From Hydrogenobacter sp. (GTDB taxonomy: Bacteria > Aquificota > Aquificia > Aquificales > Aquificaceae), in the NCBI GenBank assembly GCA_023255875.1, contig JAGDVY010000018.1, forward strand, positions 36,576 to 100,575: a stretch of 64,000 nt of DNA, in the 5' to 3' direction. The notes beneath the pieces are model-generated. The model had not been told where the DNA came from. It worked only from the letters and a program-made list of their open reading frames with translations, and ran no database searches. This document shows, piece after piece, positions 35,877 through 56,865 of the stretch. How positions within the stretch are numbered: the first letter of the stretch is position 1; each line of letters begins with the position of its first letter. Made by a program: the position numbers and the translations under genes.

Positions 35877-36486
35877 AACCTCTACCTCCTGCGATTATTT
35901 TAACAAGGTTTCTGATGGCTTTCCCACGATGGGATATGGCATCTTTTTCTTCTGGCTTTAGTTGTGCCATGCTTTTTTGCATACCTTCTGGCTGAAAGAT
36001 GGGATCATATCCAAAGCCTTCTGAACCTTTTGGTTCTTCAAGGATGATTCCTTCACACTCACCCATTGACCAATAGCCTGCATCTCCAAGGCTGAGCACC
36101 AAAAAGGCTACAAACTTGGCTCTTCTGTCTTTTACGCCTTCCATTAACCTAAGCAATTTCCTTATGTTAGCCTCGTCCTTTGAGGTCTTTACCTCCTCTT
36201 TTCCTCCATACTCATGCTCATAGAACCTGCTAGAAAAAACTCCCGGATAGCCACCAAGGGCATAAACCACAAGTCCCGAATCATCAGCAAGGGTAGGCAT
36301 ACGGTACTTTTCGTAGTAAGCTTGTGCCTTTATGAAAGCATTTTCTAAAAAGCTTGAACCCCCTTCTTGAACCTCTATCTCTTCCTTAGGAATCTCTACC
36401 TGAAAGGAGTAAGATTCCAACAATCTCTTCATCTCCTCTGCCTTTTTTGGATTGCTCGTTGCTAAAAGTATCCTTCTTAGCTCCAT
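35869..36486 (-). CDS. rdgB: XTP/dITP diphosphatase (RdgB/HAM1)
   Basis: RRILLATSNPKKAEEMKRLL; TLADDSGLVVYALGGYPGVFSSRF; GSEGFGYDPIFQPEG. Confidence 0.95.
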   Translation of the reverse strand: MELRRILLATSNPKKAEEMKRLLESYSFQVEIPKEEIEVQEGGSSFLENAFIKAQAYYEKYRMPTLADDSGLVVYALGGYPGVFSSRFYEHEYGGKEEVKTSKDEANIRKLLRLMEGVKDRRAKFVAFLVLSLGDAGYWSMGECEGIILEEPKGSEGFGYDPIFQPEGMQKSMAQLKPEEKDAISHRGKAIRNLVKIIAGGRGYE

Positions 36487-37481
36487 TGGGGCATAAAAAC
36501 TGTAGAACAGCAATTTTGGGAAACAATGGGTTTTAGACCCATCTCCTTTGCATATGAAAAGACACCCTCTGCAGGAAAGGTGATGCCATTTACTCCCGCA
36601 TGTAGCGCATACACATCCAGCTTAAACCTTTCCTCGCCGGCAGGTCTGGCACAACCTATGACCACATGGGTCGTAGGTAGCTTTTTCCTTGCATGCAGTA
36701 TCACTCTTGCACTATCTTCCGCTTTTGGTGGTGGCAGTAGTTGAAACTTAGCTTTCCCATAGTAAGGCATAACTACTACCAATACTAAAGCTGATGGTTC
36801 AAAATCCGAAATGAGGTCTATAGCTCTATACTCTCCCAAAATCTTCCCATAGTGAAGTCCTATAATGACATGTGGGACTATGTTGTGTCCGCAATCTTTG
36901 AGATTTCTCAGAGATGCTTCGTAATCTTTTACGCTTTTGTGGGGCATTTTATAGACTTCCGCTATGGTCCGGTCATCACCTATAATGTCCAAAAGTACCG
37001 CATCTACCTGTGCCTCTTTTAGGCCTTCTGCAAGCTCTTTATCTACTAGTCCCACATGACAAGTCAGGATCATACCCAGCTCTTCCTTTAGGTATCTCAT
37101 AGCTTTTAGGAAAGGCATAAGCTCCACAACACCATCTTTGTTAGATCCTCCCGAGATGAGAACACCTTGTATGCCCTTCTTCTTGAGTTCCTCTCCTACT
37201 CTTATGAGCTCTTCTGGTGTGGTAGCTGGTATCATGTGCCAAAGGATTTTAGAAGCGCAATGATCACACATAAGCTCGCAGTGTCTTCCTGTTATGGAAA
37301 TATCCACAAACTTAGGACCAGAACTTACCTTAAAGTCATCTACCTCGTAATGTTTAAAACCTGGGCTGTGGAAATATATAGTATCCCCAAAAAACTTTTT
37401 CCTTATCTCAAAACCTTCTTTAAGTTCTTCAAGGAGGGTGTGGTCCAAAGACACACCCTCCGGAAAGCTCATCAACCGCAC
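36477..37481 (-). CDS. lipS2: Radical SAM protein, LipS2-like lipoyl synthase component
   Basis: Radical-SAM CELMCDHCASKILWHMIPATTPEEL; GVLISGGSNKDGVVEL; pairs with LipS1-like ORF around rdgB. Confidence 0.78.
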   Translation of the reverse strand: MRLMSFPEGVSLDHTLLEELKEGFEIRKKFFGDTIYFHSPGFKHYEVDDFKVSSGPKFVDISITGRHCELMCDHCASKILWHMIPATTPEELIRVGEELKKKGIQGVLISGGSNKDGVVELMPFLKAMRYLKEELGMILTCHVGLVDKELAEGLKEAQVDAVLLDIIGDDRTIAEVYKMPHKSVKDYEASLRNLKDCGHNIVPHVIIGLHYGKILGEYRAIDLISDFEPSALVLVVVMPYYGKAKFQLLPPPKAEDSARVILHARKKLPTTHVVIGCARPAGEERFKLDVYALHAGVNGITFPAEGVFSYAKEMGLKPIVSQNCCSTVFMPQWS

Positions 37482-37918
37482 TTTATACCTTTTTCGTTTA
37501 TTACTTTGGTTAGGGCTTCTACCGCAGCTTGTCCTTTGAGAAGTAGATTCACCTCATCAGGATTAGAAGGCTTTATCTTTGCTATCCATCCCGCACCATA
37601 AGGATCATCATTTACAAGAGCTGGGTTTCCTTTTAACGCTTCATTTATCTCAACTATCTCGCCTGTTAGTGGTGAAGGCACTGGTCCCACCCATTTGCCA
37701 CTCTCAATAGTAGCCACGCTTTTGCGCCTATCTACTGTTTTACCCACCTTTTTAGGTGTGTAGGCAACAAGCCTTCCAGCCATGGCAGCAGCTACAGAGG
37801 TGAGCCCTATGGTAAAGGTGCCATCACCGTTGTCTTTTGCCCAGGTGAAGGCATTAGCCTCTGGGTCCACATCGTAAAGCAAGTCCTCGGGTATGTTACA
37901 CCCATTAACTACAGCCAT
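37472..37918 (-). CDS. lbpA: Lipoate-binding protein, GcvH-like (LbpA type)
   Basis: GcvH fold with lipoyl-lysine site ATIESGKWVGPVPSPLTGEIVEINEAL; extra Cys (NGCNIPEDLLYD, KGIKCG). Confidence 0.9.
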   Translation of the reverse strand: MAVVNGCNIPEDLLYDVDPEANAFTWAKDNGDGTFTIGLTSVAAAMAGRLVAYTPKKVGKTVDRRKSVATIESGKWVGPVPSPLTGEIVEINEALKGNPALVNDDPYGAGWIAKIKPSNPDEVNLLLKGQAAVEALTKVINEKGIKCG

Positions 37919-37945
37919 ATTAATACCTCCCATGTATGAGATTTT

Positions 37946-38335
37946 TTAAAATATCAACACTTTATTCGCTTCCAAAGCTCTGAGGGCAAACTCGCTGGCT
38001 GGAACAATTCCGTCAAGCTCTTTTATAAGATCCTCCTCTTTGAGTCCCAAAGAGTCCACTGCTTGCTTGCAAGAGTAAAACTTAACACCTGCCTGCTTGG
38101 CATCCTTCATAAAGTCATACACCGTTTTCAGCTTTTTTCCGTTAGGAGAAAGACAGTTAGGTTCTGCTGGTATTATTCTTTGAGCCACACCCTTTTTTAA
38201 AAGGTTTGTACCATCCATATTAAAGAACATTTCCACCTCCGCCTCGTTGGAAGCCATAAGAGCTGCTATATAGAAAGGTGCTGCGCACCTCCATGGTGTC
38301 CTAGGACCGCTGGTCATAAGGATAATTACCTTCAT
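37946..38335 (-). CDS. DsrE-family sulfurtransferase-like protein
   Basis: VIILMTSGPRTPWRCAAPFYIAALMASNEAEVEMFFNMDG...GVKFYSCKQAVDSLGL. Confidence 0.85.
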   Translation of the reverse strand: MKVIILMTSGPRTPWRCAAPFYIAALMASNEAEVEMFFNMDGTNLLKKGVAQRIIPAEPNCLSPNGKKLKTVYDFMKDAKQAGVKFYSCKQAVDSLGLKEEDLIKELDGIVPASEFALRALEANKVLIF

Positions 38336-38589
38336 GATTCTATTGCCTTTCTTGCTTCTGCTTCATCTGGTACGCCAACAAACGCAAGCTTTCCGTCTAT
38401 TATGGTAGAAGGCACAGACCTAATTAACAGCTTCTTTGCCCACATTTTACCTTCTGGCTGAGCCACATCAAGCACATCGTACTTAAAACCGTACTCCGCC
38501 TGCAACTTTCTCCAGAGCATATCCGCATCGGGACATGTAGCGCACCACTGAGACACCAAAAGTATTACATGCTTATCCTTTGCCCCCAT
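38332..38589 (-). CDS. Thioredoxin-fold redox protein (CxxC)
   Basis: HVILLVSQWCATCPDADMLWRKL...IRSVPSTIIDGKLAFVGVP; ATG 38589 overlaps lbpA TGA (ATGA). Confidence 0.85.
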   Translation of the reverse strand: MGAKDKHVILLVSQWCATCPDADMLWRKLQAEYGFKYDVLDVAQPEGKMWAKKLLIRSVPSTIIDGKLAFVGVPDEAEARKAIES

Positions 38590-39062
38590 CACGTACACCT
38601 CATACAAATTATGTCCCATTCATCTATGTACTTTTTCATTTCTTCTATAGCCTTTTCACCGGTTACAAGGTCTTTAATATCCCTCTCTAAGTCCGCAGGC
38701 TTTATTCTTGCAACCCAGCCTTCTCCGTAAGGGTCGTAGTTTATTATGTCAGGTTGCTCAAGGACCTTCTCATTTCTTTCTACCACTTCACCTTCTATAA
38801 TGGCATTTATTGGTCCTGCCCACTTGCCACTCTCCAAGGAAGCTACGGGTTTTCCTTTCTTTATGTACTTGCCCGGCTCTTTTATTCTTGCGTGCAAGAG
38901 CCTACCCGCCCTTACCTGTCCCACATCGGTAAGACCCATGGTCACAGTCCCATCTTCGTTTATCCTAAACCACGTCTGCGTTTCTATATCGTAGTAAAGG
39001 TCAAGGGGTACAACGCAACCGTTGTACTCCCATTCTTTACTTGCAGAACCACCTAGTCCCAT
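38589..39062 (-). CDS. lbpA: Lipoate-binding protein, GcvH-like (second LbpA)
   Basis: VASLESGKWAGPINAIIEGEVVERNEKV; NGCVVPLDLYYD; C-terminal IICMRCT. Confidence 0.9.
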   Translation of the reverse strand: MGLGGSASKEWEYNGCVVPLDLYYDIETQTWFRINEDGTVTMGLTDVGQVRAGRLLHARIKEPGKYIKKGKPVASLESGKWAGPINAIIEGEVVERNEKVLEQPDIINYDPYGEGWVARIKPADLERDIKDLVTGEKAIEEMKKYIDEWDIICMRCT

Positions 39063-39070
39063 CGCACCTC

Positions 39071-40030
39071 CTATGCAAGTCCAAGTCTTTTGAGCACAGG
39101 AAGTGGGTCTGAGAGGTTATCCTTTAGTTTTACATCGTTAGCGCTATAACCAAAAGCCAAACCAAGCAATTGAGTGAAGTATGCAGCAGGCACATCTACA
39201 TCGGGCACTCCCTTCATCATAAGTCTATGCCTGTACATCTCAAGGGAAGCATGGCACAGTGGGCATTCCGTTGCTATTATGTCCGCTCCGTTCCTTTTGG
39301 CAGTTTGGAGGATCATCATTACGAACTTTTCAGACACCATCTCGTCAGACAGCGAGTGAGGTCCTCCGCAACATTGGGTATGCATAGGTTCAAAATTCAC
39401 ACTGGTAGCCCCTGCAGCCTCTAACAGAGCATTCATGTAATAGGGATGTTCGTCATCATCTGCAGTGTCTCTCTTTCTTGGTCTTGCATCTTCATCTTGA
39501 CCGCCTGCGTGTGCGTATGTCCTTGCATAGAAGTGAGGTCTTGTGTAAAGGCATCCGTAGTAATTGGCAACTTTTAGTCCCCTTAGAGGTCTTTTGGTCT
39601 TTTCCTTTACCTTCTGAGGTCCTGCTTCGTGATAGAACCACTCAAGTATGTGGTAAGTGTGAGGTATCTTATCAAGAGGATCTACACCACCCTCTCTGAG
39701 AAGTGCGTTTACCCTCTCAAAAACGCTTTTGTCCGTCTCTAGGAAGTACTCCGCCCTTTGAAGAGAGAAGGAACAGCCGTTGCAAGGTGCCACTATAACA
39801 TCGTGCCCTTGCTTTCTTGCCAAGGACATGTTTCTGGCATTTAGGAGCATGGTGCCCATGAAAGTCACATTTTTGGATTCCATGGCACCACAACAGTTGT
39901 AATCTTCAAGATAATCTAGCTCTAAACCGAGCTCTCTTGCAACGATCCTTGTTGAAACATCATAAGCTCTTGCAGCACCTTCCAAAGAACATCCTGGATA
40001 ATATGCTACTCTCTTACCTATCACGCCCAT
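39071..40030 (-). CDS. Heterodisulfide reductase-like subunit B2 (sHdrB2)
   Basis: CCG domains: YNCCGAMESKN...APCNGC; THTQCCGGPHS-type (MHTQCCGGPHSLSDEM)...ATECPLCH. Confidence 0.92.
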   Translation of the reverse strand: MGVIGKRVAYYPGCSLEGAARAYDVSTRIVARELGLELDYLEDYNCCGAMESKNVTFMGTMLLNARNMSLARKQGHDVIVAPCNGCSFSLQRAEYFLETDKSVFERVNALLREGGVDPLDKIPHTYHILEWFYHEAGPQKVKEKTKRPLRGLKVANYYGCLYTRPHFYARTYAHAGGQDEDARPRKRDTADDDEHPYYMNALLEAAGATSVNFEPMHTQCCGGPHSLSDEMVSEKFVMMILQTAKRNGADIIATECPLCHASLEMYRHRLMMKGVPDVDVPAAYFTQLLGLAFGYSANDVKLKDNLSDPLPVLKRLGLA

Positions 40031-40041
40031 TTTATACCTCC

Positions 40042-40803
40042 TTAATGCGCTAATGCGCCTTCTTCTTCCATAACTTTTCTAAGCACGTGCTTAAACTTAT
40101 TCCAGTTTTTGGTTCTTGGATGGAAGAGCATGTGTTTAGCATTTAGTATAAGGAAACCTATGTTCATGGATTTTATGGGTTTCATGGTAAGCTGCTTTAG
40201 CCATTCGGGAGTTTCTCCTATAAAAGGTATAGGCTTTCTGAGAATAGGGTCTTTTACCACCTTGTAGCCTTGTTTTTCTATCCATCCAAAGAGAAGCTCT
40301 CCGTCCTCTATCCTTCCATACTCAAGCACCTGTTCTGTAAAGAACTTGTCAAACTTCTTGGAAGGATACTCTTCAATGAGTCCCCTTTTTGCCATGGTTC
40401 TGAGAATCACCTTTAGGACTTCTTCCACAAGCACACCTTTGGGACATCTGTGAGTGCATTTGTGGCAAGATACGCATCTCCACATTACATCCGCTCTTTT
40501 TTGTAGCTCGTCTATTAGACCCAACCTTGCAAGGTGTATAAAGTGTCTTGGGTTGTAACGCTCATCCCAGTAGTTATGAACGGGACAAGATGCGGTACAG
40601 TAGGAGCACTGATAACACTGGTTTATGGTCTTTCCATCTGGAGAATTCACTATTTCCTTAGCAAAGTCAAGGTCATAGTCGTTTATGACCCTTGGCAGGA
40701 TTATAAGGTTCCAGTCTCCAGAAACGTCTATACCGTCAATTACGAGCCTCTCCTTTCTTAAAATTCTCTCTGGCTCTACCAAACTCCTTTCGTGTATAGC
40801 CAT
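40042..40803 (-). CDS. Heterodisulfide reductase-like subunit C2 (sHdrC2)
   Basis: 4Fe-4S clusters CYQCSYCTASCPVHNY and CVSCHKCTHRCPKGV. Confidence 0.92.
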   Translation of the reverse strand: MAIHERSLVEPERILRKERLVIDGIDVSGDWNLIILPRVINDYDLDFAKEIVNSPDGKTINQCYQCSYCTASCPVHNYWDERYNPRHFIHLARLGLIDELQKRADVMWRCVSCHKCTHRCPKGVLVEEVLKVILRTMAKRGLIEEYPSKKFDKFFTEQVLEYGRIEDGELLFGWIEKQGYKVVKDPILRKPIPFIGETPEWLKQLTMKPIKSMNIGFLILNAKHMLFHPRTKNWNKFKHVLRKVMEEEGALAH

Positions 40804-40806
40804 GGC

Positions 40807-41553
40807 TTACACCTCCAAAATATCTTCTTTTCTCATTATTCCTAATAGTCTCCTTGCCATGACTCCCGCGGGTGGGAAAAAGCCTTTGGCACTGTGCATG
40901 GTAGAAAGGGTCATATAATCCACATAGGTTGCGTATATCATGGCAAGGAATATGTCCACAAAAAGGTATCCTTTTACCTTTATACCAAAATCCGTTAATT
41001 TCTCCTGTATTTGCTTGTATATACTTTCAAACTCTTCGTAAGTTTCTCCGTACATGCTCCTTTTGGGTGGCTCTTCCTTTAAGAAAACCACCGCACCGCT
41101 TTCGCTCTCTGGATCCCATATCCAACTTGTCCAAAGTACATACTCTTCAGGAAAGGTAAAGTGTAGAAGTTCAGATGCTATATCCCTTGCAGATTTTCTA
41201 TCCACACCCCTTATCTCTCTCACGAACTTTTCCACTCTCTCTTCCCATGAGTTTGCCTTTCCATACAAAAGATCGCTTATAGCTTTCTTTAACCTATCTA
41301 CACCTGTTTCCTCTATAATCTTTTTCCTCTTCCTTCTGCTTGCGAAGATCTTCTCTAGAATGGTATCAAGCTCCTCTTCAGTTAAAGAGGCAAGCCTTTC
41401 TTTGCTCAAAAGTTGTTGAAAGAGGAGGGACTTGGCGAGGAGATCCCTGTAGAGATCCTGCACAAAGTCCTCGCCTTCACCCAGTATCTTTATCAGGTAG
41501 TCCCTAACTAAAAAGTCATCTAAAGTAGTTCCCTTAAACCTTTTTTCCATCAC
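40807..41553 (-). CDS. Conserved sHdr-cluster hypothetical protein (Hyp)
   Basis: Position between sHdrA and sHdrC2, as in described shdrC1B1A-hyp-C2B2 clusters; no cofactor motifs seen. Confidence 0.75.
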   Translation of the reverse strand: MMEKRFKGTTLDDFLVRDYLIKILGEGEDFVQDLYRDLLAKSLLFQQLLSKERLASLTEEELDTILEKIFASRRKRKKIIEETGVDRLKKAISDLLYGKANSWEERVEKFVREIRGVDRKSARDIASELLHFTFPEEYVLWTSWIWDPESESGAVVFLKEEPPKRSMYGETYEEFESIYKQIQEKLTDFGIKVKGYLFVDIFLAMIYATYVDYMTLSTMHSAKGFFPPAGVMARRLLGIMRKEDILEV

Positions 41554-42608
41554 ACACTGACCTTAGCACCAATAAATGCTGCTGCTTCTGCTGCTGCTGC
41601 CTCACCTTCGGATAGAGAGGACTCTATGTCTATAGGTCCTTTACATGCACCCGCTATAAATATGCCGGGCTTGTTGGATACTATGTTAGAGCCGGATTCT
41701 TCGGAGGGTATGAGGAACTGGCTATCTGGATCTTGGGCAAGACCAAGTATTTTTGCTACCTTCTTTGTACCTTCGGAAGGTTCCATACCTAAAACTAACA
41801 CCACCAAGTCCATAGGAACTTCTGCGGGTCTTTGAACTATGGTGTCTTCGTGTTTTACCCTAAGTCTTCCATCTGCAGGGCTATAGGTGATCTCTGCTAT
41901 CCTACCTCTTACATACCTTACACCGTACTTTTCTTGAGGTGCCCAGTAGAAAGGATACTCCCAAGTGCCGTAAGTTCTCACATCCATGTAGTAGCAGAAG
42001 ACATCAACATCTGGATAGTGTTCTCTTATTTCAGAACCTTGCAAACCAGATAGAGCACATCCGTACCTACAGCAGTGTACGTTTGTAACACCAAGCTGTC
42101 TGTCTCTAGAACCTACGCAGAAAACAAAGGCAACTCTTTTAGGTAGCTGTCCGTTGGAAGGTCTGTAGAGCCTACCTTCTTTTGAAAACATTTGTTCCAA
42201 TTCAAGGTTTGTGATAACGTCTGGATAAATACCGTATCCGAGTTCTCCCTTTCTTCTTGGATCAAAGTGCTGGAAACCGGTAGCTACTATTATAGAGGCT
42301 ACTTCGTGAGTTTCGCCGTTAGAAAGTCTTACTTTGAAGTTTCCAGGTTCTCCTTCACAAGCTTCCAGTTCAGTCTTGAGCTTTACCTCTATATTGGGAT
42401 TTTCTTCTACCTCTTTGATGTAGGGTCCCAACACTTGAGATGGTTTTAGCTTCCGTGGAATGAGTGTGTAGTAGTTTTCAAGTATGGGCCTACCACCAAG
42501 TTTTTCCTCCTTTTCAATAAGGAGGGTAGGCACACCGAGCCTACCCAAAGCTCTTGCTGCCGCAAGACCAGCTGGTCCACCACCGACCACCAAAACCTTC
42601 TTAGCCAT
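41550..42608 (-). CDS. Heterodisulfide reductase-like subunit A (sHdrA), FAD-binding
   Basis: KKVLVVGGGPAGLAAARALGRLGVPTLLIEKEEKLGGR; FVFCVGSRDRQ...NVHCCRYGC. Confidence 0.92.
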   Translation of the reverse strand: MAKKVLVVGGGPAGLAAARALGRLGVPTLLIEKEEKLGGRPILENYYTLIPRKLKPSQVLGPYIKEVEENPNIEVKLKTELEACEGEPGNFKVRLSNGETHEVASIIVATGFQHFDPRRKGELGYGIYPDVITNLELEQMFSKEGRLYRPSNGQLPKRVAFVFCVGSRDRQLGVTNVHCCRYGCALSGLQGSEIREHYPDVDVFCYYMDVRTYGTWEYPFYWAPQEKYGVRYVRGRIAEITYSPADGRLRVKHEDTIVQRPAEVPMDLVVLVLGMEPSEGTKKVAKILGLAQDPDSQFLIPSEESGSNIVSNKPGIFIAGACKGPIDIESSLSEGEAAAAEAAAFIGAKVSV

Positions 42609-42623
42609 GAAAAACCTCCTCTA

Positions 42624-43967
42624 TTAAGACTTGAATAGTGGCATTGCAGCAGTTGCAGAAGCTTTTGGTTTTCCAGTAGATGTTCTGCTATATGGTTCAT
42701 AAAGGTCATATGTCTTGAAGAACTCCATAAGCTCGTCGTACTTTCCAGCCTTTTCAAGCTCTGATATGTACTTAACCGCGTCTTCCCACTCCTTCTTGAG
42801 CTCTCTCCAGTTGGTTATACCCATCTTTTCAAGAAGAGGCTCATAAGCAGAGCAGTTCCAGTAGAGCTGAACCACCTTGAATGGGTGAGCACCACATGCA
42901 AGAGCTGCAAACATCACGTCAGACATAACAGCTACGGGATAGTACATACCGTGAGCTTTCCCTATCCACTGGTTCTTTTCAAAGGTGGTAGTGCATCCGG
43001 TGTCGTGTGTAATGATCACATCCGCTTTGACCTCTTCGTATATAACCTTGAGCTTCCTTTGTATAGCAAAGGACCTGGTGAACTCTCTTTCTGTAAGAAT
43101 GTGCCTAAAACCAAAACCACAGCAGTCATACCATGTGGAGTAATCTACTACTTGTGCACCAAGAGCTTTCATAACTGCAGTAGATGCTGCAGGTCTTTGA
43201 CCGTTGAACACCTCAGGATCGTAAGGATAGTCGTCAGCTATCATCTTGTAAGTGTGGCATGCGTTGTGTATGGCAACCCTCACATTGGATACATCTATAC
43301 CTTTTGGCTTACCTTCCTTCTCGTAGAGTTCTGCTATCTTATACCTCATAGCGTGGACCCATTCAGAGTAGTGGACTATTTCTTGAGGAATGACTATCCT
43401 TCCATCCTCTGTAAGTCTTCCAAGCTTCTTGAGTATGGGTTTTACCGCATCTCTGAGCTCTTTGTTCATGATGAGCTGTTCTCTGGTTTCCTTATAAGAA
43501 CCAAAGGATGTTCCGCAGTGTATGAGAGGATAATAACCTGTCTTCCAAGCTTGGTGCATGTTCCTGAGCCACACAGCTGCGAGAGCTACAGGGTTTGATG
43601 TTCCAGAACCGTGGTAGTTCCAGGCAGTGCAAGATGTTTGGTGAGGTTCGTTAAGATAGTCAAGTCCAAACTTGTTCATAAACCAGAATAGAGATGCAGG
43701 GTATCCGGGTATGTTTCCGCACTGACCACAGGACTTGTGGTGCCACAGCTTGTTGGTAGGTATAACCTTTATTCTTCCTGTCCTGGTGTAAACGTACATA
43801 GGTTGATGCTCTTCAGTGATCCTGTATATGAGTATTTCACCCTTCGCTTCGAGCTCTTCCATCATCTCAAAGATGTGATCGTAGTGAGCATTGTACTCTT
43901 TAAGTGGAAATGGTGGCTTCTCTGGATACATAAGTATGCTTCCCTCTTTACGCTGACCATGTGCCAT
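42624..43967 (-). CDS. Heterodisulfide reductase-like subunit B1 (sHdrB1)
   Basis: SCGQCGNIPG and YDCCGFGFRH CCG-type motifs; position in cluster. Confidence 0.9.
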   Translation of the reverse strand: MAHGQRKEGSILMYPEKPPFPLKEYNAHYDHIFEMMEELEAKGEILIYRITEEHQPMYVYTRTGRIKVIPTNKLWHHKSCGQCGNIPGYPASLFWFMNKFGLDYLNEPHQTSCTAWNYHGSGTSNPVALAAVWLRNMHQAWKTGYYPLIHCGTSFGSYKETREQLIMNKELRDAVKPILKKLGRLTEDGRIVIPQEIVHYSEWVHAMRYKIAELYEKEGKPKGIDVSNVRVAIHNACHTYKMIADDYPYDPEVFNGQRPAASTAVMKALGAQVVDYSTWYDCCGFGFRHILTEREFTRSFAIQRKLKVIYEEVKADVIITHDTGCTTTFEKNQWIGKAHGMYYPVAVMSDVMFAALACGAHPFKVVQLYWNCSAYEPLLEKMGITNWRELKKEWEDAVKYISELEKAGKYDELMEFFKTYDLYEPYSRTSTGKPKASATAAMPLFKS

Positions 43968-44018
43968 GATAAATACCTCCTTTAAGTTTTTTTTGGGGCT
44001 TCAAACCCGTTTGTGAGC

Positions 44019-44744
44019 TTACTCTTCTTCATAAAGTTCTTGATAACGTTCTTCGTTTTCTTCCACTATATCCATTATTACGTTATATAGGTTAGGGTCC
44101 AGCTTCTCAAGCATCTCAAATATTCCAGTCTCTCTCCATATGGTGTACATCTCTATAGCGGTCTCCAGAGATACTTCCCAAGCGGTTTTGACGGACTTTC
44201 CTACATCAAAGGGAATTGCCATTCTCTTGGCTCTGAGGTTTTCCATGTTATCTGCCATTTTGGGACCCCAGTCTGGGAAGAAGTCAGGCTGTAGCATGTC
44301 TGCTGATAGCTGGTTTCCTGTGGTCATCACTTTGAGAAGAACTCTTCCGTAAGGCTTAAGAAGATCCTTTGTAGCCTCAAAAGCGTTACGTACAGCCACT
44401 TCTCTCATTATGGCAACAAGTCCACCTGGGTTGTTGACAAAGGGACAACGAATCCAACAGGTAAAGCACTGAGAACACGCCCATATGTACTCGTGCATCA
44501 TGTCGTAGAGAACTTCCACATCATCTTCTAAGAATCTTTGGACTATCTCTCTGGGAGAGTAGTCAAAGAATCTATTTGATGGACAGGATGCGGTGCATAC
44601 TCCGCAGTTAAGGCAACCAAATATGTATTCCTTAAAGCGAAAATCTGACTTTACTTCCTCAATAACCCTTACCTTTTCTTCCCATGGGACACTCTTAGTC
44701 TTTTCCGATATGGGAATGTTGTATCCATAACTATGTCCGTCCAT
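44019..44744 (-). CDS. Heterodisulfide reductase-like subunit C1 (sHdrC1)
   Basis: 4Fe-4S motifs CLNCGVCTASCPSNRFFDYSPREIV and CSQCFTCWIRCPF. Confidence 0.92.
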   Translation of the reverse strand: MDGHSYGYNIPISEKTKSVPWEEKVRVIEEVKSDFRFKEYIFGCLNCGVCTASCPSNRFFDYSPREIVQRFLEDDVEVLYDMMHEYIWACSQCFTCWIRCPFVNNPGGLVAIMREVAVRNAFEATKDLLKPYGRVLLKVMTTGNQLSADMLQPDFFPDWGPKMADNMENLRAKRMAIPFDVGKSVKTAWEVSLETAIEMYTIWRETGIFEMLEKLDPNLYNVIMDIVEENEERYQELYEEE

Positions 44745-44824
44745 AGCCTATACCTCCTTAAGCAGTTCTACATAAAAATGTATAGTGGTGGTAGCTTAAG
44801 TCAATTAAGTTTTGCTTATGGACA

Positions 44825-44842
44825 TATAAGCATATGCTTATA
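44825..44842. promoter_or_regulatory. 18-bp perfect palindrome TATAAGCATATGCTTATA upstream of shdrC1 (candidate operator)
   Basis: Exact self-complementarity over 18 bp in the 128-bp gap between dsrE and shdrC1. Confidence 0.6.
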
Positions 44843-44872
44843 AATTTCCTATAAATATAAATAAAAGAAGAG

Positions 44873-45298
44873 TTAAAGAGTGATAACCGCATATTCACCA
44901 CTCATAAGCTTGTCAAGAAAGGCAGCACCACCTATGATCCCATCACAAAGCTCTGGGTTCACATCTTCCTTTGTATATATTTCTGTAAGATCAAGAGAAG
45001 GCACACAGAGGTATATCTTTACACCCGCATCTTTTGCCATTTTTATAAAGTCGTAGACAGTTTGCTCTACACCAGGTCTAACCTTAACCTTTTTGGCGTT
45101 ATCTCTCATAAGCAAAAAGCCTGCTTCTGAGGTTATCACCATTTCCACCTCGTAGTCCATGGTAGTTGCTGCTGTAGCAAGGAAGAAGGGAGCACCCGCT
45201 TGAGGGTTTATGAGCTCTCCCGTTGTGGGCTCAGCTCTTTCAAAGAAAGGTACTGTTAGTATGTAGAAAAGTAGCTTTTCATAACCCTGTGCAGCCAT
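44873..45298 (-). CDS. DsrE-family protein
   Basis: APFFLATAATTMDYEVEMVITSEAGFLLMRDNAKKVKV...TVYDFIKMAKDAGVKIYLCVPSLDL. Confidence 0.82.
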   Translation of the reverse strand: MAAQGYEKLLFYILTVPFFERAEPTTGELINPQAGAPFFLATAATTMDYEVEMVITSEAGFLLMRDNAKKVKVRPGVEQTVYDFIKMAKDAGVKIYLCVPSLDLTEIYTKEDVNPELCDGIIGGAAFLDKLMSGEYAVITL

Positions 45299-45312
45299 AT
45301 TTTACCTCCTCC

Positions 45313-45846
45313 TTATACAAAGATAATCATAGGTTTGTCCGCTTCTAACACGTAGTTTATAAAGGTTGCTGCTCCTGCGGGAGGTTCAAGACCGTCTATT
45401 AAGTCTTCGTACTTGTATCCAAAGAGTTCCATAGTCATCTGACATGGAATAAGCTTTACATCTGCTTCTTTACACGCTTCTATGAGTTCAGGGATATCTG
45501 CAACTCCATGCTCCTTTATGGTCTTTTTCATCATATAGGTCATGAGATCTGTCATTCCTGGTATTATGCCCATGATTTGAGGGGGTCCGGGAAAGATGGA
45601 AGATATGGTGTTAGTTATAGCGTTTTGCATAGATGGTGGGAAAGCCATAGGCATGGCTGGATTGCCAATGGGCGCTATCTTGAGCTCATTCATCTTCTTT
45701 TTGTGTATTATGTTCAGTCCGTAAAAGGTGAAGAAAATAGCAGTTTCTACACCCAAAGAAGCTGCAGTTGAAGCAAGGATCAGAGGTGGATATGCCATAT
45801 CAAGAGTTCCTTTTGTGGCTATTATGGCGAGCCTTTCGGTAGCCAT
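45313..45846 (-). CDS. DsrE3-type sulfurtransferase (DsrE/F/H-like)
   Basis: RLAIIATKGTLDMAYPPLILASTAASLGVETAIFFTFYGL...DVKLIPCQMTMELFGYKYEDLIDGLEPPAGAATFI. Confidence 0.9.
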   Translation of the reverse strand: MATERLAIIATKGTLDMAYPPLILASTAASLGVETAIFFTFYGLNIIHKKKMNELKIAPIGNPAMPMAFPPSMQNAITNTISSIFPGPPQIMGIIPGMTDLMTYMMKKTIKEHGVADIPELIEACKEADVKLIPCQMTMELFGYKYEDLIDGLEPPAGAATFINYVLEADKPMIIFV

Positions 45847-47676: not shown

Positions 47677-48727
47677 GTCCTTCATCGTTCTTTGCTTTTA
47701 TCACACAGTCGGGTAATATACCCTCATCGCTTGTTATGTTATCTCCATTGGGAAGTTTCATTGCAAAAGTAACAAGCCTTAGCACTCTACCACAGTCATC
47801 CAATTTATACATATTACTACCTACATACTTACCTACCGTAAGCTCACCCGCAATAACCGCTTTATCATAGACTCTGAGTAAAACCGTCAAAAGCTCCGCA
47901 GCAGATGCGGTCCATCTGTTGACAAGAACGAGCACAGGTTTTTTAAAGAGAGGCTCTCCATCTTTAAATTCGTACACATCAGGCGCTCTATTTCTACCTT
48001 CTAAGTAAAACATCACACCCTTTCCTCTTATAAACATGTCCGCTATACTTTTGGCAACGGAAATAAGACCACCACCGTTGTCCCTGAGGTCAAGCAGGAG
48101 CGCATCAACATCTTGAGAGTTTAAAAATTCCAAAGCTTTTCTGAACTCCTCTACTGCAGGGTTTGTAAAGTTTGTCAGAGCTATGTATCCTATTTTTTTA
48201 TGGTCTAATAGTATAATCCTAACTTCTTCCACAGGAGGAACGGAAAACTCGCCTTTGACAATGTGGAATTCCTTAAGATTTTCCTGTCTCTTTACTTTTA
48301 TGTTTATGATGCCTCCCACAGGCACACTTCTTATAGTCTGGCTCCAAAGATTTTTGTCCTTTACTCCATTTATAGAAAGGATCACATCACCTTCTTTAAG
48401 TCCGCTTTTTTCCGCAGGAGAGTCTTTGAACACCCTTTTTATAGTGCCTTCGTCATCCCATCTTATACCTATACCAAACATTTTGGCTTTGGAATACCAA
48501 AGCCTGTCTTCTTCTATATTGGTTATAGCGGTCCATCTATCACCTTTCCTTCTCAGATAAGCTATGGCTTCATCAAGACTACCCCATTCCACACCATCTA
48601 TTCTATCCTTCCACAGATAGTGTTTATTTACAATCTCTTTGAACCTACTTAGGGCTTCTTTTGAACATAAATCCTGAGCGTAAGATACATGCAGGATAAG
48701 TATCAGGATAAAAACAGGAATACCCAT
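47612..48727 (-). CDS. S41-family C-terminal processing peptidase with PDZ domain
   Basis: PDZ (KSGLKEGDVILSINGV), catalytic NRWTASAAELLTVLLRVYDKAVIAGELTVGK. Confidence 0.93.
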   Translation of the reverse strand: MGIPVFILILILHVSYAQDLCSKEALSRFKEIVNKHYLWKDRIDGVEWGSLDEAIAYLRRKGDRWTAITNIEEDRLWYSKAKMFGIGIRWDDEGTIKRVFKDSPAEKSGLKEGDVILSINGVKDKNLWSQTIRSVPVGGIINIKVKRQENLKEFHIVKGEFSVPPVEEVRIILLDHKKIGYIALTNFTNPAVEEFRKALEFLNSQDVDALLLDLRDNGGGLISVAKSIADMFIRGKGVMFYLEGRNRAPDVYEFKDGEPLFKKPVLVLVNRWTASAAELLTVLLRVYDKAVIAGELTVGKYVGSNMYKLDDCGRVLRLVTFAMKLPNGDNITSDEGILPDCVIKAKNDEGLSMALDCLLKRIFEESSIAQP

Positions 48728-52290: not shown

Positions 52291-52334
52291 ATGATCTTTA
52301 TCATATTGACATCTGATTTCAATTTTTGTAATAT
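52291..52334 (+). promoter_or_regulatory. Promoter TTGACA-17-TAATAT with adjacent ATGAT-N4-ATCAT inverted repeat
   Basis: IR 52291-52304, -35 TTGACA 52306-52311, 17-bp spacer, -10 TAATAT 52329-52334, 38 bp before porin ATG. Confidence 0.7.
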
Positions 52335-52371
52335 GGTTGATATTAAATCTCAATGCAGGAGGTTATAGAGA

Positions 52372-53727
52372 ATGAGGAAGGTGCTTTTGCTTTCCGCCCT
52401 CTTTTCCACAATAGCTGTAGCACAGCCTATAGAGGAAAAAATAAGACAATTAGAAGAGCAGATAAGAATTCTTCAGCAGGAAATTCAGAAGTTAAAAGAA
52501 GAACAAAAGAAAACTGAGGAAGTAAGACAGGAAACAGAGGTACTTAAAGAAGAGATAAGAAAGCTTAGACTTGAAATAGCGATGCCTGAACTTGAAATCA
52601 AGTCTTATTCTGGATTGGGACCCGCTGCATCCAAGGCACTATTTAATCCTAAAGGAGTTTCCGTAGGTGGATATGGAGAGATCCACTTTACCCATAATCC
52701 CGATAAAAAGCCCAAAAATGAAGTGGATGCCAAAAGGTTAATACTTTACTTTGGTTATGCCTTCAACGAAAAGCTAAAGTTCAATTCAGAAATTGAGTGG
52801 GAACATGCCTTTGTTGAAGGAGGGGAAGAAAGCGGTGAAACCGCGGTGGAATTTGCCTTTATAGATTACAGCTTTAACGAAAAGTTGGGATTGAGAGGTG
52901 GTCTTGTTCTTATTCCTGTAGGTATCATTAACGAGTATCACGAACCTCCTACCTTTCCCAGTGTGGACAGGCCTTTTCTTGAAAGGAACATAATACCCAC
53001 AACTTGGCGCGAGCTTGGTTTTGGAGCTTACGGAAAGTTAGAAAAACTTGAATACAGAGCTTACATTACCAATGGCCTAAAACCCAATGAGGAAGCTGGG
53101 GAAAAAGTTGAGAAAGGGCAGCTTTTGCAAGGCTTTAAACAGAAAGGTTTTAAAGCGGTCTCTGATCAGATAGCCTTTTCTGGAAGGCTGGATTATAACT
53201 TTCCGTATAACTTAAAAGTAGGAGTGAGTGGATTTTTTGGTGGTGTGCAGGACAAAGAGGGTAAAAAGCTTGGAAATCTAAATCTTATTTCTCCTCATCT
53301 TTGGTGGCAGTATGGTGGATGGGATGTGAGGTTTGTGGGAGCATACGGAACTACCTCTGGAGCGGATAAGATATCTCAAGAGATAAGTACAAACGCAGTA
53401 TGCCAACTTGGTGATACAGCTAATTGTACCACATTTCCCAAGAAGTTTTACGGCTTTTATGCACAGTTAGCTTACGATATATTTAGGTTTCTGAAAGTGT
53501 CTGATCAACAGCTTTATGTGTTTGGTATTTACGAAAACTACAACACGCACGCAAGCGTGCCAGATGGCTATACAAAACCTTCAGGACATAGGGTGCAGGT
53601 TTTTAATGTGGGTATTTCTTACAAGCCTCACCCGCTTGTGGCACTAAAGGCAGACTATGTGCGCTTTTCACCGAAAGATGCCAAAAAGCAAAACATCTAC
53701 AGATTAGCGCTTGGATGGATGTTTTAA
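52372..53727 (+). CDS. Outer-membrane beta-barrel porin (OprO/OprP-like) with N-terminal coiled coil
   Basis: Signal peptide, heptad region EEKIRQLEEQIRILQQEIQKLKEEQK, alternating beta-barrel strands, C-terminal ...LALGWMF. Confidence 0.85.
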   Translation: MRKVLLLSALFSTIAVAQPIEEKIRQLEEQIRILQQEIQKLKEEQKKTEEVRQETEVLKEEIRKLRLEIAMPELEIKSYSGLGPAASKALFNPKGVSVGGYGEIHFTHNPDKKPKNEVDAKRLILYFGYAFNEKLKFNSEIEWEHAFVEGGEESGETAVEFAFIDYSFNEKLGLRGGLVLIPVGIINEYHEPPTFPSVDRPFLERNIIPTTWRELGFGAYGKLEKLEYRAYITNGLKPNEEAGEKVEKGQLLQGFKQKGFKAVSDQIAFSGRLDYNFPYNLKVGVSGFFGGVQDKEGKKLGNLNLISPHLWWQYGGWDVRFVGAYGTTSGADKISQEISTNAVCQLGDTANCTTFPKKFYGFYAQLAYDIFRFLKVSDQQLYVFGIYENYNTHASVPDGYTKPSGHRVQVFNVGISYKPHPLVALKADYVRFSPKDAKKQNIYRLALGWMF

Positions 53728-53739
53728 GGAGGAGGTCTC

Positions 53740-55383
53740 ATGAAGAGGGTTTTTCTACTTTCTGCAATCTTTCTTTATGCATGCGGGGGAGGAGGGGGTA
53801 GTACTGAAAAAGAAGAGATTACGAATTTTACCAACCCTGAGCCTAACATACCCCTTGAGTGCTATACGGATACAGGTATAGTCAGATACGGTAGGGCTAT
53901 AGCAAACCCATGTTATGTATGCCACACCCAGGCAAACACACCCTATGCCAACGAAAAGACAGACTTTGATCTGACGCTCAAGTACTCTTTTCCAAGAGAA
54001 ATACTGAAGTTAGGTAATCCCTGGCTAAACGCCATAAGACCTGACCTTACCCTTGCTGGTATTCCTACGCCTTCTGATGCAGAAGTGCAGAGCTACATAA
54101 GACAGGACAACTGGATGGAGGCTTATCAGAAGAGGGGAGAAGGAGATCTCAAGTACTTTCCTGACCTTCCACCCATATATACATACAGCGGTGGGACTTA
54201 TCAGCTTGTTAATATAGACAGTGAAGGTTTTGTAGGTAGCACGGGATGGCGAGTCTTCAAGTGGAAACCTTTCCCGGGCTTTTTCCCCACCAACGGCAGA
54301 ATAGATTCCACCTTTATAAGGCTTGACAAACCTTTCAGAGAAAAAGAAGGGAAATTTGACAAAGCCACTTACAAGAAAAACTTAGCCATAGTTGAGTGTG
54401 CCGTAAAAGGAGTTAGTCCGGGTAATCTGTGTAGTGATACAGAGGTAGGAGACTTCATCATGCCGGATCGGTACGAGGGAGACGCAAGTAGTGTGCCCGT
54501 CATAACTTACCAGTACCCACCTGGAACAGAATTCGCTCATCCTCTCTACTATCTTGACCCTCAAAACACCATATCCTTCAAATCTCTTAGGATAAGGGAA
54601 ATGAGGTATATGAAGAAATTAGCTTACGCAGAAACAAGGAAAGAGCAGGAAGAGGAAGAGGAAGAAGAAGGCTTTTTCTGGGATAAAGGGCTTGTTTTTA
54701 ATGATAGCAAAAACTGGATTATGGTGGGGTTTATAGAGGACAAAGACGGAAAGCTACGACCTCAAAATGCTCAGGAGATGAAGTTTTGTATAGCGTGTCA
54801 TGGAGGCATCGGCGGGACGGTAGATGCCACTTTTACTTACTGGCGTAAGGTGCCAGGAGCAAAAGGATGGATGGAGCAGGATTACAACCTTGTAGTAAAA
54901 AGCATAAAAGACTGGACTTACGCAAGCTTAGAAGGAAACATAGGACCTGAGCTTAAAAAGCTTCTACCTCTTGTAAAGGGAGAGTATCAGCTCTACTTTT
55001 CAATGACCAACGGAGGAGATCACTTCAGGAGCAACCAAGAGATACTCTCAAGGATAAGCAAAGATATTAACAAAATATCCTTCATACTTTCACCCCAGGA
55101 CAACATTATCACAAACCCAGGCCTTATAAACTATCTGGATAATGAAGGCTACATAAAGCCTGAGCTTTTTCTTCCTTCACCTGAACGAGCATACGGTATA
55201 AACAAACAGTACATGAGAGTGGTAAAAGCTCAAGGGTTCATCTTTGGAAGGGATGTTTTCGATAGACCCTTTGGTCTTTCATCCGGTGGAAACTCTTTAG
55301 AAAGACTTGATGCGGTAGAAAGCACTGGAGTAAAGGAAGCTGGCATATGGGCAATCATAAAGACTATTCTGTTCTTAAAGTAG
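53740..55383 (+). CDS. Diheme c-type cytochrome-like lipoprotein, uncharacterised
   Basis: Lipobox-like LYACGGGGGS; two CxxCH heme-binding motifs (CYVCH at 53911-53925, CIACH at 54787-54801). Confidence 0.82.
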   Translation: MKRVFLLSAIFLYACGGGGGSTEKEEITNFTNPEPNIPLECYTDTGIVRYGRAIANPCYVCHTQANTPYANEKTDFDLTLKYSFPREILKLGNPWLNAIRPDLTLAGIPTPSDAEVQSYIRQDNWMEAYQKRGEGDLKYFPDLPPIYTYSGGTYQLVNIDSEGFVGSTGWRVFKWKPFPGFFPTNGRIDSTFIRLDKPFREKEGKFDKATYKKNLAIVECAVKGVSPGNLCSDTEVGDFIMPDRYEGDASSVPVITYQYPPGTEFAHPLYYLDPQNTISFKSLRIREMRYMKKLAYAETRKEQEEEEEEEGFFWDKGLVFNDSKNWIMVGFIEDKDGKLRPQNAQEMKFCIACHGGIGGTVDATFTYWRKVPGAKGWMEQDYNLVVKSIKDWTYASLEGNIGPELKKLLPLVKGEYQLYFSMTNGGDHFRSNQEILSRISKDINKISFILSPQDNIITNPGLINYLDNEGYIKPELFLPSPERAYGINKQYMRVVKAQGFIFGRDVFDRPFGLSSGGNSLERLDAVESTGVKEAGIWAIIKTILFLK

Positions 55384-55393
55384 GGCTTAAAAT

Positions 55394-55948
55394 ATGTTAA
55401 GCATGTGTAGGTGGCGTGCTTTGTTTATCGTATTCTTTTGTTTTATCTCTTTTGCAATAAATAGTTTTGCAAGAGATTTCAAAACCTTACAGCAGGCTCT
55501 TAAAGATGCCTTTCCGGGTGCAAGCATAGAGGTTAGAAACATAGTACTTTCAAAACCGCAGGTGGAAAACATAGAAAAGCTCTCTGGCGTAAAACTAAAC
55601 ACAAGGCTCGTATCTTGGTATATAGCCAAAAAAGGAAACTCTATAGTGGGATACGCATACATAGACATGCATACGGTTAGGACCCATCCTGAGGTAGTGC
55701 TATACACCATAACACCAGAAGGGAAGATAGACCTAATAGAAGTGCTTTCTTTCAACGAGCCTCTTGAGTACATGCCCGATGAAAACTGGCTAAAGCTCTT
55801 TAAAGGAAAAATGCTAACACCAGATACCATAAGACTCAGAAGGGACATACCCAATATGACAGGTGCCACACTCACAGCAAAAGCTATCACCGACAACGCA
55901 AGAAAGGTGCTTGCCATGTGGCAGGTAATCTTTGGAGGTGAAAGATGA
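55394..55948 (+). CDS. Secreted FMN-binding domain protein
   Basis: Signal-like N-terminus; MTGATLTAKAITDNARKVL covalent-FMN-type [ST]GAT motif. Confidence 0.85.
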   Translation: MLSMCRWRALFIVFFCFISFAINSFARDFKTLQQALKDAFPGASIEVRNIVLSKPQVENIEKLSGVKLNTRLVSWYIAKKGNSIVGYAYIDMHTVRTHPEVVLYTITPEGKIDLIEVLSFNEPLEYMPDENWLKLFKGKMLTPDTIRLRRDIPNMTGATLTAKAITDNARKVLAMWQVIFGGER

Positions 55949-56865
55949 GGTTCTTTATATCCGCTAACATAAAAAGCAATAAACCTCTCTACTACCTCAT
56001 CTTAGCCTTTCTGATTTTTCTACTTTTTTATTGGATAAGCTCGTGGATCTACTTTTATCACAAATACGGTTTTACCTACTCATCAAGTTTTAAGTACTTC
56101 TTTGGAGATCCAAACTTTCCTGAGAGAATATCCCTCTCTCAACTCTCTGAAGACATGCATGTGGATGTATTTTTGAAGGCTTTTTACATTTTGGTGCTGT
56201 TTTCTCTTTTTTTACTATCTTCTTTTCCCAAAAAGCTAAAGACTACCTTGATTATTGGAACAACTTTTTCTGGCATATTTGCTGTGCTCTCTGACCTTCT
56301 TATAGTCTATGGCTCTCCCCTTTTCATATACGTAAAGCTCTTTTCCTTTTTTATGTTCCAAGTTTTGAGTGGTGTAGCCTTACTTTTAACGCTTCTCTTT
56401 TTCATCTTTATGGGTGAGGACAAAGCTTCTGGTGTATCAAGCATTAAGCTCCTTCTTTTGATGTTTTCTCTGTTTTTGTTTATTTTTGTATTTATTAACT
56501 TTATAGTTTTTTTCTCAAAAATGGGCTTTACCTTTGACAGTGTAAAAAGCTACTATCTGGGAAACCCATCTACCTTTAGCAAACCCAAAACTTTTGAGGG
56601 CATGCTTAAGGTCTTCCATCCTCACCTTCTTTCCATGGCTATTTATTCTATAAGTGTTTCTCACCTTATTCTCTTTACCAACTCCAAAAGGAAACTACTG
56701 ATAGGGCTTTCCCTTTTTTTCTTTTCCTTTCTTGATAACCTATCAGGTTTTTTGGTGAGGTTTGTCCATCCCCAAATGGCTATTGCTAAAGTGCTTGCCT
56801 TTTTATCACTTCAATGCCTGCTTCTTTACACCTCTTTTCTTCTCTTTCGCAGTTCAAAAGCTTAG
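55945..56865 (+). CDS. Polytopic membrane protein with internal tandem duplication
   Basis: Two halves align by eye: FYHKYGFTYSSSFKYFFGDPN...MHVDVF and FFSKMGFTFDSVKSYYLGNPS...FHPHLL; 4-bp overlap with upstream FMN gene. Confidence 0.75.
   Translation: MRFFISANIKSNKPLYYLILAFLIFLLFYWISSWIYFYHKYGFTYSSSFKYFFGDPNFPERISLSQLSEDMHVDVFLKAFYILVLFSLFLLSSFPKKLKTTLIIGTTFSGIFAVLSDLLIVYGSPLFIYVKLFSFFMFQVLSGVALLLTLLFFIFMGEDKASGVSSIKLLLLMFSLFLFIFVFINFIVFFSKMGFTFDSVKSYYLGNPSTFSKPKTFEGMLKVFHPHLLSMAIYSISVSHLILFTNSKRKLLIGLSLFFFSFLDNLSGFLVRFVHPQMAIAKVLAFLSLQCLLLYTSFLLFRSSKA

Follow-up and report, generated by a model that had tools for sequence, protein, structure and literature searches.

Which genes of a four-gene operon in Hydrogenobacter sp. 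belong together, and what does the system that they encode do? The operon lies in a 64,000-nucleotide stretch of one contig, hereafter the window, in which a sequence-only reading had seen an electron-transfer chain running from an inner-membrane protein over a periplasmic flavoprotein to a diheme lipoprotein, beside a porin. The claimed arrangement is borne out by the ORF calls, which place on the plus strand, with gaps of 12 bp, 10 bp, and -4 bp, the genes encoding an OprO/P-type porin with an N-terminal coiled coil (52372 to 53727; 451 aa), the diheme lipoprotein (53740 to 55383; 547 aa), a secreted FMN_bind protein resembling RnfG/NqrC (55394 to 55948; 184 aa), and a membrane protein in which two homologous 4-TM units are fused (55945 to 56865; 306 aa). 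The "one strong promoter" ascribed to them corresponds to a single sigma-70-like promoter, TTGACA-17-TAATAT (52306 to 52334, plus strand; 10 of 12 consensus positions), but such a site says little by itself, since shuffled sequence yields sigma-70-like sites no less often than the window does. The 3' end of the membrane-protein gene shares 80 bp (56786 to 56865) with that of a convergent gene for a MATE transporter, and each of the five genomes of the genus preserves this layout.

Presence profiles were built for 136 Aquificota genomes. The FMN protein was found in 66 of them, the membrane protein in 69, the porin in 67, and ApbE, the flavin transferase expected for covalent FMN, in 71, while the lipoprotein gave 26 matches, 24 of them strong. 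The co-occurrence test, which omitted two weak FMN matches, one distant membrane match, and marginal porin matches, showed that the FMN protein never occurs without the membrane protein (66 of 66; Fisher p 9e-36) and that the porin and ApbE accompany its gene in 61 of 66 (p 4e-25) and 63 of 66 genomes (p 8e-26), respectively, these p-values overstating independence because the genomes share kinship. Gene order nevertheless supports the profiles. ApbE often adjoins the FMN gene, and the orders that we read in Aquificota include ApbE-porin-FMN-mem (L165 and L166), ApbE-mem-FMN-porin (L167), ApbE-porin-diheme-FMN-mem (L042), and ApbE next to an FMN-mem1-mem2 set that diverges from porin-diheme (L047 and L048, with a similar block in L045). 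The conserved core consists of the porin, the FMN protein, the membrane protein, and ApbE. Co-occurrence, which the sequence-only reading had put forward as a check on the diheme lipoprotein and the membrane protein, is far beyond chance for these four, whereas the lipoprotein is an optional insert present in only 24 genomes, since both presence profiles and gene orders show the core mostly without it. As a fixed link of the chain, the lipoprotein has to be given up: most core-bearing Aquificota do without it, and the cytochromes of Campylobacterota loci, where there are any, are different ones.

The FMN protein possesses the TGAT flavin-attachment motif attributed to it, at residue 156, and passes the Pfam FMN_bind model (23.3 bits, cut-off 22). 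GAT is invariant in 12 FMN-protein sequences of two phyla, and the predicted flavinylation site spans residues 156 to 159 (55859 to 55870, plus strand). Domain and attachment motif recall the FMN subunit RnfG/NqrC, but the match to rnfG is weak (E 3e-4, below the rnfG cut-off), the partner of the FMN protein is a 4-TM pair, and no Rnf or Nqr subunits were recognised among the FMN-gene neighbours examined. A check for ApbE, as the sequence-only reading had suggested, finds the gene across the phylum and in each of the other four genomes of the genus, but not in the window's own genome (G000). The region flanking ApbE in a related genome (G025) maps to contig C4 of the window genome and ends at base 48621 of 49285. 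Since synteny breaks at the contig end, where ApbE should lie, an assembly gap would be the simplest reading of the missing gene, short of proof.

The membrane protein had been described as duplicated, with repeated His-containing loops. The duplication stands, as the profiles of its halves are homologous (hhalign 99.3%, E 8.5e-21), but only H72, H227, and H240 are invariant. The N-terminal unit (55945 to 56415, plus strand), corresponding to mem1 of other genomes, holds His72, and the C-terminal unit (56428 to 56862, plus strand), corresponding to mem2, holds His227 and His240. Hydropathy and a single-sequence structure model too poor for use (pLDDT 55) agree on four long helices per half. 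Since H72 and H227 occupy about equivalent positions in the two halves, one heme b might be held between them. No Pfam or NCBIfam family matches the protein, and its single Cys leaves room for neither a Cys pair nor a 4Fe-4S motif. Five membrane classes have been listed for flavinylated systems, namely, NapH-, MsrQ-, PepSY-, DsbD-, and NQR/RNF-like (PMC8238504); the membrane protein fits none of them. We also observed membrane proteins of about 250 aa with a CxxCH loop and no Pfam family (L193:664-1413, L195:3369-4145, and L196:4026-4910), for which an hhalign probability of 89% is suggestive of a distant kinship with the 4-TM units.

As for the porin, its coiled coil is present as described, whereas its assignment to the OprO/P type comes from its relatives: the Porin_O_P match of the window protein is sub-threshold (E 0.05), and Campylobacterota orthologues pass the same model, PF07396 (6e-7 and 1e-6). 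In one genome of another family (G099, L033:4890-9538), the porin and lipoprotein are 79 to 80% identical to those of the window, while the FMN and membrane proteins are merely 54% and 42% identical, and this difference suggests that the porin and lipoprotein genes were transferred there separately from the other two.

The diheme lipoprotein has a lipobox, FLYAC, with Cys15 as its cysteine, and contains exactly the two CxxCH motifs claimed for it, CYVCH at residues 58 to 62 (53911 to 53925, plus strand), whose Cys and His are invariant in 52 relatives, and CIACH at residues 350 to 354 (54787 to 54801, plus strand). No Pfam or NCBIfam family reaches its cut-off in this protein. Two weak but independent lines point to a cytochrome P460/c'-beta-like domain at about residues 150 to 370 (54187 to 54849, plus strand), preceded by an N-terminal c-heme. 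The first is the structure model (pLDDT 73.5, pTM 0.81), for which the best three Foldseek matches are all P460/c'-beta proteins (E 0.04 to 0.08, probability 0.80 to 0.84); the second is that 38 of 52 relatives match the cytochrome P460 family PF16694, the best of them at 2.9e-6, with the window protein itself staying below the cut-off. Searches of PDB sequences with the diheme protein, its profile, and the consensus of the P460 region returned chance matches only, which leaves the Pfam counts and the fold as the basis of the assignment; solved P460 sequences likewise gave no significant alignment to the lipoprotein. The match to cytochrome P460/c'-beta is one of fold and, near the second heme, of weakly similar sequence; an additional c-heme at the N terminus and an extended C terminus set the lipoprotein apart. 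Members of this superfamily oxidise hydroxylamine or bind NO (PMC11928373).

Outside Aquificota, scanning with the single protein found no diheme relatives, whereas an alignment query found 130. CxxCH stands at both conserved places in all 80 wider relatives examined, with a third in a few deltaproteobacterial fusions. In most of the loci inspected (L054 to L133, e.g., L069:2552-6083), these relatives adjoin a PhoX-like gene (PF05787), in Proteobacteria, Leptospiraceae, Verrucomicrobia, and Myxococcota, a separate partnership. The FMN and membrane proteins were considered as universal partners of the diheme family and ruled out, as they are not among its neighbours outside Aquificota; a clear match to the membrane protein occurs in 1 of 37 genomes hosting diheme relatives there.

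The lipoprotein family also led us to a second phylum, by way of a Helicobacteraceae metagenome-assembled genome (L192) in which the genes for a porin, a CCP/MauG diheme cytochrome, the FMN protein, mem1, and mem2 are consecutive, so that a different diheme protein takes the same place between porin and FMN protein. According to a profile search, the membrane family is present in 38 of 397 Campylobacterota genomes. In most of the 20 Campylobacterota loci, the order is porin-FMN-mem1-mem2 with ApbE alongside, the membrane component being encoded by two genes as opposed to the one fused gene of the window, and in 12 of 21 loci ApbE has ribBA, a flavin synthesis gene, next to it. Four Campylobacterota loci contain inserted pentaheme cytochromes, and in one locus (L234:7127-11839) a NapC-type cytochrome and 3-, 11-, 7-, and 8-heme cytochromes lie directly 3' of FMN-mem1-mem2. 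These insertions, together with the porin standing beside cytochromes and a lipoprotein, are what one would expect if the relay served dissimilatory or extracellular electron transfer, respiring an external oxidant such as a metal oxide or sulfur, or taking up electrons from outside, with the porin as part of a conduit. We consider this the least unlikely of the alternatives weighed here but improbable nonetheless: in most genomes the core has no adjoining cytochrome, the cytochromes that do occur belong to unrelated families, two hemes are too few to span the outer membrane as MtrCAB or Pcc do, and the Fur-type control described below better fits assimilation. The resemblance to Pcc/Mtr conduits, a porin beside a cytochrome lipoprotein, goes no further in that the operon has a single two-heme cytochrome where a multiheme cytochrome would be looked for, this cytochrome is optional and absent from most clusters, and the conserved partners of the porin are a flavoprotein and a membrane pair.

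By inspection of the regions upstream of the porin gene, we noticed a palindrome, TGANATNNNATNTCA. In the window it is represented by two unstranded boxes, box 1, TGACATCTGATTTCA (52307 to 52321), overlapping the -35 hexamer, and box 2, TGATATTAAATCTCA (52338 to 52352), just 3' of the -10 hexamer. The window genome has three exact TGANATNNNATNTCA sites in all: the operon promoter contains two, and the remaining one lies where a DUF2325 gene begins (G000:C4:40232; L239), so that this gene has the same promoter box as the operon; the reversed control gave 1 site. Other genomes have 2 to 5 such sites, among which those at the operon, DUF2325, and a second outer-membrane-like protein recur, but since the reversed controls reach 0 to 5, single sites elsewhere mean little. 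The DUF2325 gene lies directly upstream of the porin gene in several genomes (L036:5078-5380, L037:4880-5191, and L049:7903-8253). The second outer-membrane-like protein, of about 240 to 250 aa, shows the same box in two genera (L263:1461-2213 and L272:714-1436). Across 37 Aquificota upstream stretches, the box, of TGA-N9-TCA geometry, gave 40 matches against 0.42 expected, a count that is partly circular because the pattern was derived from the same sequences.

In Campylobacterota, 16 of 20 loci have, upstream of the operon, a Fur box that matches the textbook consensus TGATAATNATTATCA with at most two mismatches. Of 29 matches in 266 kb, 23 fall in 5 kb of upstream DNA, where 0.12 are expected; this consensus was not derived from the loci counted, although their sequences had already been inspected beforehand. 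The boxes of the window share the TGA-N9-TCA geometry of Fur sites, yet depart from TGATAATNATTATCA at 3 of its 14 fixed positions. Judging from these boxes, Fur would be the regulator of the operon in Aquificota as well, and the window genome does encode two Fur-family proteins. Since none of the feoB genes in the loci read is preceded by the exact box, however, the Aquificota box may answer to another member of the family such as PerR. In metal-reducing deltaproteobacteria, a Fur box, WTGAAAATNATTTTCAW, precedes feoAB and porins proposed for iron transport (PMC545781).

Control by a PerR-type protein would suit a periplasmic detoxification role, in which the relay supplies heme enzymes with electrons for the removal of peroxide, NO, or hydroxylamine. 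The main point in its favor is the co-regulated DUF2325, which in C. jejuni is under PerR control and next to katA (PMC9426514). The P460/c'-beta-like domain of the lipoprotein and the CCP/MauG protein inserted in L192 point the same way. Even so, we deem this role decidedly unlikely, as most clusters are without a heme enzyme and as the Campylobacterota boxes end in TTATCA, like Fur sites, and not in TTATAA, like the PerR consensus.

Our leading reading, in which we place about even confidence, is an iron-starvation-induced, ApbE-flavinylated periplasmic electron relay with a porin, most likely an assimilatory ferric reductase; assimilation of iron is favored over metal respiration because of the Fur-type regulation. 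When iron is short, a Fur-family repressor would leave the two promoter boxes; the quinol pool would then deliver electrons to the membrane pair, possibly via a single heme b to which either half contributes its His, and the pair would pass them to the periplasmic FMN protein, whose flavin would have been attached by ApbE and would reduce Fe(III) that had entered through the porin. The ferrous iron would finally be imported by a separate transporter. Where present, the diheme lipoprotein might extend the relay to the outer membrane or add a gas-binding heme site of P460/c'-beta type. We infer flavinylation, heme b, the quinol donor, the direction of flow, and the iron substrate. Of the relay originally proposed, the step from inner-membrane protein to periplasmic flavoprotein and the partnership with the porin are thus supported, but the diheme lipoprotein is not a fixed member.

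Evidence from other systems is consistent with the ferric-reductase reading: work on H. pylori and C. jejuni connects RibBA and riboflavin with the assimilatory reduction of Fe(III) (PMC6041382), and flavinylation clusters elsewhere co-locate with iron transporters (PMC8238504). Against it count the lack of an iron transporter in the operon, the cost of making a two-heme cytochrome under iron shortage, and the multiheme cytochromes of L234, which point to respiration. Adjacency of FeoB was set aside as support, since FeoB-like genes lie nearby in only two Aquificota loci, close to chance. Iron shortage could also induce the operon if its flavin carrier replaced an iron-rich carrier in an ordinary periplasmic pathway, the porin being incidental. 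Fur-type boxes before a flavoprotein gene do resemble Fur-controlled flavodoxin (PMC545781), and flavin and cytochrome carriers are known to replace one another (PMC8238504), but such iron sparing seems to us very unlikely given that the window operon adds a two-heme cytochrome and that the porin is so constant a companion of the FMN gene (61 of 66 genomes).

Returning to the ferric reductase, we put forward more tentatively, with somewhat less than even confidence, that the tandem or fused 4-TM proteins form a sixth membrane electron-transfer class, which would drive a flavinylated ferric reductase that is under Fur control and has a porin to itself. In this view, Aquificales and Campylobacterota would share the system, and unrelated cytochromes would have been inserted into it several times. 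ApbE-flavinylated relays are a known kind, and the flavinylated extracytosolic systems of Meheust et al. 2021 (PMC8238504) share with the operon the ApbE linkage, FMN_bind with its motif, a membrane partner, and the link to iron; what is new is the membrane component, outside the five classes, the dedicated porin as a fixed partner in the core, and the probable iron control in these phyla. Neither "Aquific" nor "porin" appears in the main text of that paper, of the 2024 study following it up, or of a 2025 ApbE review. The Fur-controlled porins of Geobacter and Desulfuromonas (PMC545781) resemble that of the operon in their Fur-type boxes and suggested role in iron uptake, but ApbE, FMN, and 4-TM partners are not described there. 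Papers searched on Sulfurimonas, Hydrogenobacter, Aquifex, and Aquificales had nothing direct on the system, in agreement with the original remark that no named system has this composition, and the system conserved in Aquificales and Campylobacterota is apparently undescribed in the literature searched.

The operon bears on iron acquisition by chemolithoautotrophs, among them Aquificales and bacteria resembling Sulfurimonas. In Campylobacterota, the mechanism leading from riboflavin synthesis to Fe(III) reduction has been called unknown (PMC6041382), and the core supplies a defined set of genes open to testing, from which a clear prediction about regulation follows, together with a membrane protein family unnamed in any library searched. 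Elsewhere in the window, at 36477 to 45846, a long minus-strand cluster resembles, by eye only, a locus for sulfur oxidation of the heterodisulfide-reductase type (sHdr), and by the same by-eye assignment it includes lipoate-binding (GcvH-like) and DsrE-like proteins.
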